From: Mariprofundaceae bacterium
GTDB taxonomy: Bacteria > Pseudomonadota > Zetaproteobacteria > Mariprofundales > Mariprofundaceae
NCBI GenBank assembly: GCA_013139875.1
Contig: WSZY01000241.1
Location: 1-15,115, forward strand
DNA: 15,115 nt
Direction of reading: 5' to 3'
The stretch's first letter is position 1; every line of letters starts with the position of its first letter. A program made the translations under genes and the position numbers. This document shows, piece after piece, positions 7,348-15,115 of this stretch. Under the pieces are notes generated by a model. It worked only from the letters and a program-made list of their open reading frames with translations, did not search any database and was not told the DNA's origin.

Positions 7348-7590
7348 ATGAGCAAGCTGAAACAGGATAAGAAGCACCATGGTCACCAGTGGGGACTGCG
7401 TGTCGGCACTGAAATTGTTGCGTCGACAATGATTGGCCTTGGCATTGGATTCTTCATAGACCGTTGGCTCGATACCCGCCCGCTGTTCCTGATTATATTT
7501 GCCATTTTTGGTATTGCCGCAGGATTCATCAATCTCTACCAGCTTATGGTGATCGACATGCAGAACAAGAGCGATGGTGGCAGGCCATGA
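7348..7590 (+). CDS. atpI: ATP synthase accessory protein AtpI/AtpZ family
   Basis: An 80-residue small membrane protein of the AtpI/ATPase_gene1 family, associated with F0 operons and linked to c-ring assembly or Mg2+ supply in other bacteria. A basic N-terminus precedes two hydrophobic segments at about 20-38 and 45-68. The family motif region GIGFFIDRWLDT sits between them. GAGGAAG lies just upstream of the ATG. It is the first gene of the F0 block and overlaps atpB by four bases (ATGA). It is shorter than E. coli AtpI and resembles the short alphaproteobacterial type. Confidence 0.88.
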   Translation: MSKLKQDKKHHGHQWGLRVGTEIVASTMIGLGIGFFIDRWLDTRPLFLIIFAIFGIAAGFINLYQLMVIDMQNKSDGGRP

Positions 7591-8324
7591 GTATGGATAT
7601 GAGTGGCCCCATTGAGCACTTCAGGGTGATTATCTACCAGGACCTTCACATCGGTCCGCTTGATATTTCAATATCCAATACAGTTGTATACATGTGGATT
7701 GCAATTGTGCTGGTTGCGCTGGTGTTGCACCTGAGCATGATACGTCCGAAGCTGGTTCCGGGAACGGGGCAACTGCTGGCCGAAATGATCTACAGCTTTG
7801 TGGCCCGGCAAACCCGGCTGAATATCCATGGTGAGGGCGGCAGATACGTTCCACTGATGTTCACGCTCTTCACCTTCATTCTGGGATGCAATCTTATCGG
7901 CCTGGTTCCCGGCGCCTTCACACCGACCTCGCAACTGGCAGTAACCGGAACACTGGCTGTCGGCATCTTTCTCTATGCCGCAGGGCTTCGTTTCTATCGC
8001 CATGGTCTGGGTTTCTTCCGCGCTTTTGCACCCCGGGGTGTACCAAAGATCTTGCTGCCACTGATGATTCCGATAGAACTGATCTCATTTCTGGCACGTC
8101 CGGTGACGCTGGCTCTGCGACTGTTTGCCAACATGACGGCAGGCCATACAGCAATTGGAGTGCTGGCCGTGTTAGGGCTTGCAGCACCCTGGTTTATTCA
8201 GTGGCTGCCACTCGGCTTTACCATTGTGCAGATTGCACTGGAGATGATCATAGCCTTTATTCAGGCATATATTTTTATGGTATTATCATGCGTTTATATT
8301 GATGATGCTTTAGTGGATCACTAG
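7587..8324 (+). CDS. atpB: ATP synthase F0 subunit a
   Basis: A 245-residue polytopic membrane stator subunit forming the proton half-channels against the c-ring. The conserved block SFLARPVTLALRLFANMTAGH (about 167-187) contains Arg178, equivalent to the essential E. coli Arg210. The last helix region IVQIALEMIIAFIQAYIF matches the family. The start at 7587 overlaps the atpI stop (ATGA); further in-frame ATGs at 7593 and 7599 are possible. The frame is open upstream to 7464, but that stretch lies within atpI and is not subunit-a-like. Length fits alphaproteobacterial-type a subunits. Confidence 0.95.
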   Translation: MSMDMSGPIEHFRVIIYQDLHIGPLDISISNTVVYMWIAIVLVALVLHLSMIRPKLVPGTGQLLAEMIYSFVARQTRLNIHGEGGRYVPLMFTLFTFILGCNLIGLVPGAFTPTSQLAVTGTLAVGIFLYAAGLRFYRHGLGFFRAFAPRGVPKILLPLMIPIELISFLARPVTLALRLFANMTAGHTAIGVLAVLGLAAPWFIQWLPLGFTIVQIALEMIIAFIQAYIFMVLSCVYIDDALVDH

Positions 8325-8333
8325 GGGGTTCTT

Positions 8334-8561
8334 ATGGATGCAGCAGCAATGGTACCAATAGGCATGGGACTGGCCGCCGCAGGCATGGGTGGTGCAGCTA
8401 TCGGCATTGGCATGATCTTCAGTAAAATGATCGAGTCTGTAGCAAGACAGCCGGAGGCCGAACCAACGCTTTCCAAATATGCCTGGATCGGTTTTGCGCT
8501 GGTGGAGACCATTGCTCTTTATGCGCTGGTCATCGCATTCATTATCATGGGGCAGGGGTGA
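8334..8561 (+). CDS. atpE: ATP synthase F0 subunit c
   Basis: A 75-residue hairpin of two membrane helices that forms the rotor ring. Helix 1 is glycine/alanine-rich, the polar loop reads ARQPEA, and helix 2 has FALVETIALYALV with the ion-binding glutamate near residue 59. The 75-residue length and YAWIGFALVE context resemble alphaproteobacterial c subunits rather than the 79-residue Asp-type of E. coli. The residue after the glutamate is Thr and Tyr lies four further on, as in Na+ types. However, the helix-1 position of the Na+-ligand Gln is Ile, so proton coupling is more likely. A strong AGGGGG overlaps the atpB stop, 5 bases before the ATG, consistent with high expression. Confidence 0.95.
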   Translation: MDAAAMVPIGMGLAAAGMGGAAIGIGMIFSKMIESVARQPEAEPTLSKYAWIGFALVETIALYALVIAFIIMGQG

Positions 8562-8570
8562 TTCTTGGAA

Positions 8571-8600
8571 ATGAAAAATTACATCCGTGTATTTTTTCAT
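8571..8600 (+). other. Stem-loop 1 in the atpE-atpF gap
   Basis: ATGAAAAATTACA (8571-8583) pairs with TGTATTTTTTCAT (8588-8600): 12 of 13 positions pair, with one T-T mismatch and a TCCG loop. It starts 9 bases after the atpE stop. It could protect the 3' end of an atpE message or attenuate transcription. No U-tract follows, so it is not a canonical terminator. Confidence 0.6.
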
Positions 8601-8696
8601 CACGTAAAGGCAAAAACGTTGTTTCGCCTTTACTCACAACATCAAGTGGTTAACCACTTGATATTGGCAACACGTCCGTGTGCCGCAACCATCTAA
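8571..8696 (+). CDS. Possible 41-codon ORF between atpE and atpF, unrecognised
   Basis: An ATG at 8571 opens a frame of 41 codons ending in TAA at 8694-8696, 9 bases before the atpF ATG. The predicted peptide begins MKNYIRVFFHH and ends ATRPCAATI. It has no family I recognise and no clear membrane helix. A weak GGA sits just before the ATG. A frame this short has a fair chance of being open by accident, and the stretch is dominated by inverted repeats, so an RNA role is the better explanation. Its one merit is that atpF lacks a good ribosome site of its own and could be reached by coupling. Confidence 0.15.
   Translation: MKNYIRVFFHHVKAKTLFRLYSQHQVVNHLILATRPCAATI
8604..8633 (+). other. Stem-loop 2 in the atpE-atpF gap
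   Basis: GTAAAGGC (8604-8611) and GCCTTTAC (8626-8633) are perfect complements. An inner AAAC/GTTT pairing (8614-8617 with 8621-8624) extends the stem past a small bulge. It lies 3 bases after stem-loop 1. No U-tract follows. Confidence 0.6.
8641..8662. repeat. Perfect 22-bp palindrome in the atpE-atpF gap
   Basis: ATCAAGTGGTT is followed directly by its exact reverse complement, with the centre at GTTAAC. As DNA it could bind a dimeric regulator. As RNA it would form a third hairpin with a minimal loop. A smaller inverted repeat (ACACG/CGTGT, 8670-8681) follows. Confidence 0.7.
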
Positions 8697-8705
8697 GACA
8701 GCTGC

Positions 8706-8924
8706 ATGCCACAATTTGATACCACATTTTTCTCGTCCCAGATTTTCTGGACAATGATCTCATTCATCATCCTGTTTGTGGTGCTGAGCAGGTGGGTGCT
8801 GCCCCGTATTGCCGCAATCATTCAGGAACGGACCCGTCTGATCGAAGAGGAGATCGCAGAGGCACACAGAAAACGTGAGGAGATGGAAAGTCTCAAAAGT
8901 GAATACGCAACCAAACTCTCCTAA
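8706..8924 (+). CDS. atpF: ATP synthase b'-type subunit, N-terminal part, ending at an in-frame TAA
   Basis: This 72-residue frame encodes the membrane anchor and first part of the stator stalk. The opening MPQFDTTFFSSQIFW is typical of b' subunits, followed by one membrane helix (about 10-30) and the charged coiled-coil start ending SEYATKLS. TAA at 8922-8924 then stops translation. The same frame resumes with IDQETKK and the rest of a normal b' stalk to 9218. Read through, the locus would be about 170 residues, the usual b/b' length. It is therefore a broken gene, a sequence error, or half of a two-piece subunit. The ATG at 8706 has only a weak ribosome site. Confidence 0.85.
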   Translation: MPQFDTTFFSSQIFWTMISFIILFVVLSRWVLPRIAAIIQERTRLIEEEIAEAHRKREEMESLKSEYATKLS

Positions 8925-8948
8925 ATCGATCAGGAGACAAAAAAGATG
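8922..8948 (+). promoter_or_regulatory. In-frame stop plus internal ribosome site splitting the b' gene
   Basis: TAA (8922-8924) is codon 73 of the b' frame. AGGAG (8932-8936) follows, 9 bases before ATG 8946, which is in the same frame. This layout allows termination and re-initiation. The AGGAG is also part of ordinary codons (Gln-Glu), so it could be coincidental. Confidence 0.5.
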
Positions 8949-9218
8949 TTTGATGAGTCGGAAAAACGGATTGTCGAGCAACACAACCGGATGATGGATG
9001 AATGGAAAGAGGAGATGGAGCGGAAAAAACGGGCATTCCTGGAAGATGCTGAAGTTACGCGCCTGCGGGCGATCCAGGATATCAGAAGCCAGTCAGCAGA
9101 CCTTGTTGTTGCTGCCGCCGAGCAGGTCATTCATGAAAGAGTAGGCAAGTCCGACGCACAGAAGGCCCTTGAAGATTCGATTGATCAGCTTGAGAAGGAT
9201 TTCCCTAAAAAGATTTAG
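8946..9218 (+). CDS. atpF: ATP synthase b'-type subunit, C-terminal part
   Basis: A 90-residue, highly charged, helical frame beginning MFDESEKRIVEQHNR. It contains the b-subunit stalk and the C-terminal region (SADLVVAAAEQVIHERVG) that in the family contacts subunit delta on F1. No membrane segment is present, so alone it would be cytoplasmic. It is in frame with the upstream 72-residue part, separated only by the TAA and seven sense codons. It has its own AGGAG ribosome site. It ends with TAG 57 bases before the convergent glmS end. If the TAA is a sequencing error, this and the preceding entry are one gene, 8706-9218. Confidence 0.8.
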   Translation: MFDESEKRIVEQHNRMMDEWKEEMERKKRAFLEDAEVTRLRAIQDIRSQSADLVVAAAEQVIHERVGKSDAQKALEDSIDQLEKDFPKKI

Positions 9219-12741: not shown

Positions 12742-13157
12742 TTAGTGCTTCTTCTTTTTACGCAACCAAAGCAGGCGAGCGGTCATCATGGCAAGTTCCG
12801 CTTCAGCAAGGGCGAGATCCACATCTTCCTTCTTGCCTTCAAGAACTTCCTCAGCCTTGCGCTCAGCAGCAAGTGCCGCAGCTTCATCAATATCGGCAGC
12901 CCGTTCAGCGGTATCAGCAAGTATGGTGATCATATCAGGCTGAACTTCCATGAAGCCACCGGATACAAATACTTCATCAACCTCTTCAGGGCCGACAGTG
13001 ATTCTCAGCTCACCGGCAGTCAGCGCACAGAGAAGCGGCGAATGCTTCGGCAGAATACCAAGATCACCAGCTGCTCCGGGAGCAACAAGCATCTCAGCTT
13101 CACCGCGATAAACTTCGCGTTCAGCCGTTGCAACCAATACTTTTACAGTAGAAGCCA

Positions 13158-13158
<1 letters not shown>
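12742..13158 (-). CDS. atpC: ATP synthase F1 subunit epsilon
   Basis: A 138-residue central-stalk subunit (E. coli: 139) that couples gamma to the c-ring and inhibits ATP hydrolysis. The N-terminal beta-sandwich is recognisable from GEAEMLVAPGAAGDLGILPKHSPLL (about 19-43) and VSGGFMEVQPD. The C-terminal third is a two-helix region rich in Ala/Glu/Lys ending in a lysine run. The ATG overlaps the atpD stop by one base (TAATG), so translation is probably coupled. It is the last gene of the F1 operon, followed by a hairpin. Confidence 0.95.
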
Positions 13159-14561
<1,403 letters not shown>

Positions 14562-14584: not shown

Positions 14585-15115
14585 TTAACCAGCTGCTGCA
14601 GCACCGGCACAGATTTCTGCCAGCTCCTGCGTAATCGCTGCCTGACGTGCTTTGTTATAGGTAATGCTGAGTTCTTTAACGATATCTCCGGCATTATCAG
14701 TCGCAGCTTTCATTGCCACCATACGGGCAGACTGCTCACACGCTTTGTTCTCTAAAACACTATGGAATACCAGTGATTCGACATAACGACGAAGCAGGCC
14801 ATCCATCACCTCTTTACTATCCGGCTCATAAAGATAATCCCAATAACCGGTGTGTGTAGCATCTTCTGGGATTGGACATGGCAGAAGACGCATGGAAACA
14901 GGTGTCTGGGTCATGGTGTTTTCAAATTCACTGTAGACGAGATAGACCTCATCCACTTTGCCACTCATGTAGTGTTCCATGGCAACGCCGACCAGACCGA
15001 GAATATCTGCAATTTCAGGAGAATCAGGAACATTCTCAACTGAACCGGCAATATCGGGAAAACGGTGCAGGAACGTACCTGAACGACGACCGATAGTATA
15101 AGCTTCAGTATGAAC
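14585..15115 (-). CDS. atpG: ATP synthase F1 subunit gamma (C-terminal part; 5' end off the right edge)
   Basis: The last 176 residues of the central rotor shaft. The frame is open to the window edge, so the internal ATG at 14980 is not the start. The recognisable stretch is VHTEAYTIGRRSGTFLHRF at the window end, then KVDEVYLVYSEFENTMTQTP, and the conserved C-terminal helix ARMVAMKAATDNAGD...YNKARQAAITQELAEI that fills the alpha3beta3 core. The gene precedes atpD on the minus strand in the standard G-D-C order. atpA and atpH are expected to the right but are not visible. Confidence 0.96.
   Translation of the reverse strand, partial: VHTEAYTIGRRSGTFLHRFPDIAGSVENVPDSPEIADILGLVGVAMEHYMSGKVDEVYLVYSEFENTMTQTPVSMRLLPCPIPEDATHTGYWDYLYEPDSKEVMDGLLRRYVESLVFHSVLENKACEQSARMVAMKAATDNAGDIVKELSITYNKARQAAITQELAEICAGAAAAG

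Follow-up and report, generated by a model that had tools for sequence, protein, structure and literature searches.

In one strain, or strain mixture, of Mariprofundaceae bacteria, the gene for the b-type stalk subunit of a second F0 (here termed b2) most probably carries a recent nonsense mutation at codon 73, which would leave a stub as its product, with the canonical b subunit serving the main enzyme. We assign this reading a probability of roughly 0.6. The gene lies in a stretch of 15,115 nt (the window), where a b-type frame of 170 codons (8706-9218) reads as 72 residues, a TAA at codon 73 (8922-8924), 97 further residues, and a terminal TAG. The first-pass annotation had reported the TAA, the 97 in-frame residues beyond it, and an AGGAG situated 9 nt before an ATG at 8946, and all three are exact when the sequence is read again. 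It had also named the gene ATP synthase b'. The assignment to the b-type subunits is borne out, but the gene encodes the b subunit of a second F0 set and not a b' of the cell's ATP synthase. Sequence matches place the organism in or near Mariprofundaceae, as the nearest match among named genomes is a MAG of that family (L032, 71%) and the named protein matches come from Mariprofundaceae or Zetaproteobacteria.

The whole interrupted frame matches PF00430 at 64.2 bits, above the curated cut-off, with one TAA inside the match. The N-terminal piece alone reaches 44.9 bits, and the 90-residue C-terminal piece alone matches no Pfam family at E 0.01. A b-subunit frame as long as this one is far beyond what chance could produce. 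When a profile of b2 relatives was compared with solved chains, b chains were matched over positions 12-163 of 170 (E 4e-17), and the nearest solved chain to b2 by sequence is the b subunit of Bacillus PS3 (6n2y). Like other F-type b and b' subunits (PF00430), b2 has an N-terminal anchor and follows the gene order I-a-c-b. It differs from them in being interrupted at codon 73, whereas known b subunits are single uninterrupted chains, and in belonging to a second F0 set, with 20% identity to the canonical b that its own genome encodes. The interruption falls at a variable position. In an alignment of 19 of the 128 listed proteins plus the window, residue 73 is Glu in eight, Asp in three, Ser in one, and His in one of the 13 full-length rows, the six fragment rows being excluded from these counts.

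Table 1. Coordinates of features in the window (G000, genome of the window; G001 and G002, related genomes).
Feature	Coordinates	Strand	Basis
atpI2, AtpI-like gene	7348..7590	+	PF09527, 58.6 bits; 92% identical in G002
a2, subunit a; likely start overlaps atpI2 stop	7587..8324	+	PF00119, 198.6 bits (score from the longer frame 7464-8321; start 7587 chosen by eye)
c2, subunit c	8334..8561	+	PF00137, 59.1 bits; 98.7% identical in G002
Dispersed four-hairpin repeat filling the c2-b2 gap	8562..8705	+	Fold z -6.29
b2, b-type subunit frame of second F0, interrupted	8706..9218	+	Frame reading and PF00430
b2 N-terminal piece, 72 residues (membrane anchor and start of stalk), ends in TAA	8706..8924	+	
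Weak hairpin UCUCCU/AGGAGA over the stop and SD-like site	8917..8937	+	MFE fold of 8895-8965
b2 in-frame TAA, codon 73	8922..8924	+	Frame reading and alignment
AGGAG, part of b2 Gln-Glu codons	8932..8936	+	Sequence reading
b2 C-terminal piece; initiation at ATG 8946 (codon 81) would give 90 residues	8946..9218	+	Predicted gene P0127 in the protein collection
epsilon of the only F1 found	12742..13158	-	Sole PF02823 match in G000
beta of the only F1 found (presumed name)	13158..14549	-	93% identical frame in G001
gamma, C-terminal part (N-terminal part on contig C153)	14585..15115	-	PF00231 and contig overlap

The b2 gene closes a cassette with the order atpI2-a2-c2-b2, a second F0 without an F1, whose a, c, and b genes stand together and away from the canonical F0 genes. 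This second F0 is carried by 18 of 37 family genomes (G000-G036), as checked by annotation of the window and 17 fetched loci (L049, L050, L053, L054, L056-L068). Its location varies: some cassettes adjoin glmS, and others lie between epsilon and glmU, precede canonical a, or are located elsewhere. None of the annotated cassettes has an F1 set of its own, although the opposite strand of L056 contains a weak alpha/beta-like match (25%). Gamma and delta were searched for in 25 family genomes (G000-G024), and exactly one of each was found in nine of the ten carriers with at least 90% completeness (G001, G006, G007, G008, G011, G012, G018, G019, G020, and G021), these counts covering gamma and delta. 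The exception is G008, which has two gamma and two delta genes, the second of each residing in a third ATPase cluster on contig C5. In G011, a single-contig genome, a and b are each present twice, and gamma and delta once each.

In a tree of a subunits whose root is uncertain and which contains two long branches, the a2 of the window groups first with eight other rows (support 100/100) and at the next level with 14 (99/97), separately from canonical a1. The a2 subunits of carriers G001 and G015 are placed just outside the a2 group with weaker support (85/85), and that of G007 is outside both the a2 and the a1 groups. A link between the second F0 and a second epsilon subunit was considered and rejected, because PF02823 occurs twice both in genomes with the cassette (G006, G008, G018, G019, G022) and in genomes without it (G004, G005, G016, G017). 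A second, divergent epsilon is seen in several genomes with or without a second F0 (G004, G005, G016, G017, G038, G039, and others). Two loci have unusual gene content. Locus L060 (2673-3806), from G018, holds two tandem b-type genes, unlike the other cassettes read. The third ATPase cluster of G008 (L076, contig C5) has matches to alpha, beta, gamma, epsilon, a, and c, together with a 280-codon frame that matches the b family and, weakly, the delta family, and is possibly a b-delta fusion.

The main b of the cell lies elsewhere. Contig C153 of the same assembly carries c1, an intact b1 of 160 residues, delta, alpha, and the start of gamma. The minus strand of the window carries the continuation of gamma, followed by genes that are presumably beta, glmU, and glmS, with epsilon between the first two. 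Positions 15078-15111 of the window overlap positions 1-34 of C153 inside gamma (34 bases, 2 mismatches), and on this overlap the two contigs would be neighbors in the genome. The two gamma matches in G000 are halves of one gene cut by the contig break, and the mismatches in the overlap fit the presence of co-assembled strain variants. Canonical a1 was not found in G000, a MAG of 243 contigs and 74% completeness in which C153 breaks off shortly past c1; it is present in G002 and in other genomes. The first-pass annotation had proceeded from the premise that losing the link between the membrane and F1 abolishes coupling. This premise fails here, because an intact canonical b lies among the other canonical genes of C153.

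If the stop reflected an established arrangement, it would be expected among close relatives, as the first-pass annotation had proposed to check by alignment. It is absent from all other places examined. An internal stop was observed at only one of 88 PF00430 places in 61 genomes, namely the window b2 (0 of the other 87), and when the b2 protein served as the query, at one of 49 places in 37 genomes, again the window b2 (0 of the other 48); the two sets overlap. The b2 frames read from 16 other cassettes are all open and span 167-175 codons. The b2 of a 17th cassette (G014), located at a contig end and partly annotated, has no internal stop in the PF00430 search. Among the best 120 of 194 matches in the protein collection, the first 79 are 168-178 residues long with at least 50% identity. 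The closest of the listed matches (P0001) is a metagenome protein on a JGI contig of 2,400 bases, which is 97% identical to b2, 170 residues long, and uninterrupted. Like the contig overlap, this near-identical protein speaks for a mixture of strains. As far as the data reach, then, the relatives are uninterrupted, this strain alone differs, and a second intact gene is present elsewhere in the genome, as a single canonical b rather than the b/b' pair that had been envisaged.

A second broken b2 seems to exist, judging from protein entries. P0086 (95 residues, with the sequence lost after 'DQEVK') and P0128 (75 residues) are each assigned to a 12,326-base contig, and their placement on one contig follows from equal contig size and source label. 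The loss of sequence in P0086 comes a few codons past the place of the window's stop, and our guess is that it stems from a slip in an A-run. Two apparent lesions in b2 fit weak or variable selection on the gene, but might also be two errors.

The history of the gene before the lesion was assessed by comparison with G002. The fastest-changing member of the cassette is b2 (71% identity, compared with 82% for a2, 92% for atpI2, and 98.7% for c2), and the canonical set has a fast member as well (delta at 76%, with b1 at 87.5%, alpha at 95%, and c1 at 96%). Between G000 and G002, codons 1-72 of b2 give dN 0.18 and dS 1.64, and codons 74-164 give dN 0.15 with dS saturated and yielding no estimate. 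These values indicate that both halves have been under constraint since the split from G002, and any loss would therefore be recent, in a gene that mattered until recently.

The strongest competitor to a nonsense mutation is a wrong base in the MAG consensus, which would mean that the b2 gene of the organism is uninterrupted. The fragmented and incomplete state of the MAG, the near-identical uninterrupted protein P0001, the mismatches at the contig ends, and the open frames of the other cassette genes are all consistent with such an error. However, spurious stops do not pervade the assembly: the other 14 genes of the window are each a single open frame, and none of 21 ABC-ATPase matches in the MAG, of which 19 exceed the cut-off, contains an internal stop. 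Moreover, a single wrong substitution is seldom left in a consensus that combines several reads. On the assembled sequence, we consider an error unlikely while granting it a substantial share of the probability. Together with a recent nonsense mutation, it accounts for nearly all of the probability. These are the two of the four options in the first-pass annotation that stand; the remaining two, read-through and a stator made in two pieces, do not.

We infer that the stop is present in the organism, arose recently, and inactivates b2. On this nonsense-mutation reading, the b2 product is expected to be a membrane-anchored stub of 72 residues that ends early in the stalk and would be unable to reach delta on F1. 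The canonical b encoded on C153 would serve the main enzyme, which would be unaffected, and growth therefore need not depend on b2. The second F0 of this strain would be either idle or borrowing the canonical b. Some facts weigh against this reading. The gene has otherwise been constrained relative to G002, and its partner c2 is nearly unchanged. Because the MAG is incomplete, another b2 copy or more F1 genes may be missing from view. In addition, the C-terminal piece of b2 is a predicted gene in the protein collection (P0127) in a cluster of two member sequences, and so the same piece might occur in another assembly.

Far less probable is the proposal that the 72- and 90-residue pieces are both made, through re-initiation, and reassemble via their coiled coil into a two-piece stator. 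The idea derives its appeal from the AGGAG (8932-8936) that precedes the in-frame ATG (8946-8948) by 9 nt, with the ATG located 21 nt past the TAA, an arrangement that had been described as a ready-made re-initiation site. A ribosome terminating at the TAA would be expected to open the weak hairpin that hides the AGGAG, and the C-terminal piece is represented by P0127, albeit only as the output of a gene caller. The site is nevertheless ordinary coding sequence. The ATG encodes Met 81 of b2, and both this methionine and the codons that include AGGAG are common in uninterrupted b2 genes. A codon-level comparison revealed the identical AGGAG-9-ATG at codon 81 in two of 13 uninterrupted orthologs (L060 and L068), and so the site was not created along with the stop. 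ATG 81 with some SD core is present in six of the 13. Among 145 internal in-frame ATGs of 14 window genes, seven (the b2 site included) have an SD core of at least 4 bases at 4-10 nt, and the b2 site is the only one with a full AGGAG. The local RNA (8895-8965) folds no better than its shuffles (z -0.31). Re-initiation at ATG 8946 is possible by chance, and may yield some of the 90-residue piece, with no indication of selection for the site. A split stator as an adaptation was rejected, given that the split is not conserved (0/87 and 0/48), the closest listed protein is uninterrupted, the SD-like site is pre-existing coding sequence, and a canonical b is present. Read-through or recoding of the TAA, which has in its favor only a frame that goes on with normal stalk sequence, is more improbable still and was likewise rejected, as TAA is the ordinary stop of six of the 13 further genes in the window for which the stop codon was read (epsilon, beta, gamma, and the genes that are presumably pilS, pilC, and pilB) and of three of four on C153 (alpha, delta, and c1), internal stops occur in no other place examined, and the window contains no Rfam family.

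The gap between c2 and b2 is occupied by a repeat element that folds far better than its shuffles (z -6.29). Between the last sense codon of c2 and the start of b2, match coordinates give a distance of 147 nt in the window, about 149 nt in G002, about 40 nt in G001, 13 nt in G008, and 44-88 nt in G011, G020, G027, and G033. The element is found at the same site in G002, where it is 94% identical over 137 nt. The sequence AGGAAG directly precedes the b2 start in G011, G020, and G033, and is absent in the window and G002. In this lineage, the element may have reduced the expression of b2. In the c2-b2 gaps of L062 and L066, a hairpin followed by a T-run looks terminator-like by eye and perhaps lowers b relative to c.

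The structure of the element was examined with an alignment of 17 rows, drawn from 22 loci after exclusion of four weak or truncated copies (L095, L096, L106, and L108) and omission of L091. Compensatory changes are present in 17 of 36 pairs, and 92.8% of cells pair, the corresponding values being 82.9% for shuffles and 32-41% for slid controls; because the structure was derived from the same alignment used for counting, it is favored over the slid controls by construction. A covariance model located the element in 19 of 46 genomes, with 28 copies in G000, 40 in G001, 44 in G020, and at least 65 in G041. These counts include the copies used for model building, and as 68 candidates were scored per genome, the high ones are lower bounds. 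Copies are mostly intergenic and occur in either orientation. Two of 18 (L050 and L090) overlap an ORF chosen by length alone, and two of 22 (L090 and L097) lie inside an open frame of at least 120 codons. By eye, several copies start near TTAAGGAT and finish near ATCCTTA, and the copy in the window has no clear 3' end. The ends of these several copies suggest a MITE-like dispersed repeat. No match to Rfam at gathering thresholds was obtained in the window or in 12 loci, and our literature search returned nothing relevant to this repeat.

The b2 stop itself is ordinary, either a strain-level lesion or an error. What is worth keeping is the repeat element and the presence of a second F0 across a family of iron-oxidizing bacteria, where about half of the sampled genomes carry it and a second gamma or delta is lacking in most of the well-assembled carriers. 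The most parsimonious view is that the second F0 is an alternative membrane motor for a single F1. A second I-a-c-b set, whose rotor ring and stator differ, would dock on the same alpha-beta-gamma-delta-epsilon head, and swapping the motors might serve, for instance, to adjust the H+/ATP ratio where iron oxidation supplies a low proton-motive force. Should one F1 accept both F0 sets, the cell could shift its H+/ATP gearing by exchanging membrane motors. We hold only tentatively, at somewhat less than even odds, that Mariprofundaceae have one F1 with two interchangeable F0 motors and that the second motor of this strain has just lost its stalk, being now silent or held by the canonical b. A strain with a broken b2 would offer a natural test of whether the second F0 requires a stalk of its own.

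No description of a full second-F0 cassette in Mariprofundaceae was found in the literature searched, which consisted mostly of papers available without subscription, and the portions on ATPases seen in five papers (PMC3179512, PMC4643136, PMC10734525, PMC8250860, PMC3770913) mention no second F0 in Zetaproteobacteria. According to the part of one of these that was consulted, Sideroxydans has a second complete ATP synthase (PMC3770913). Duplication of a bacterial F0 without F1 is already in print, to judge from the sections available to us of a survey that reports an ectopic full F0 duplication in Desulfococcus oleovorans (Koumandou and Kossida 2014, PMC4154653). As in the window cassette, an extra a-c-b set occurs there without extra F1 genes. 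That case, as presented in those sections, concerns one species, whose a and c subunits group with Thermotogae (PMC4154653), whereas the second F0 described here is carried by 18 of 37 genomes of one family. The Mariprofundaceae cassettes further differ from it in having atpI and, in all but one cassette read, a single b.

The same sections (Table 2 and text) report an ectopic b outside the main locus in Mariprofundus ferrooxydans, a member of the same bacterial group (PMC4154653). Only an extra b and an extra epsilon are listed for that species in the portion seen, in contrast to the complete I-a-c-b cassette described here. N-ATPase, presented there as a second complete ATPase that was laterally acquired with its own F1, resembles the present case as a second rotary-ATPase locus beside the canonical one (PMC4154653). 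Identity with N-ATPase was rejected, given the lack of F1 genes in the annotated cassettes. A parallel for exchangeable membrane parts comes from the fungus Podospora anserina, in which, according to the part of the source consulted, two paralogous c-subunit genes provide alternative rotor parts for one ATP synthase (PMC4956034). There the alternative involves c only, whereas in Mariprofundaceae it would extend to a whole bacterial F0.
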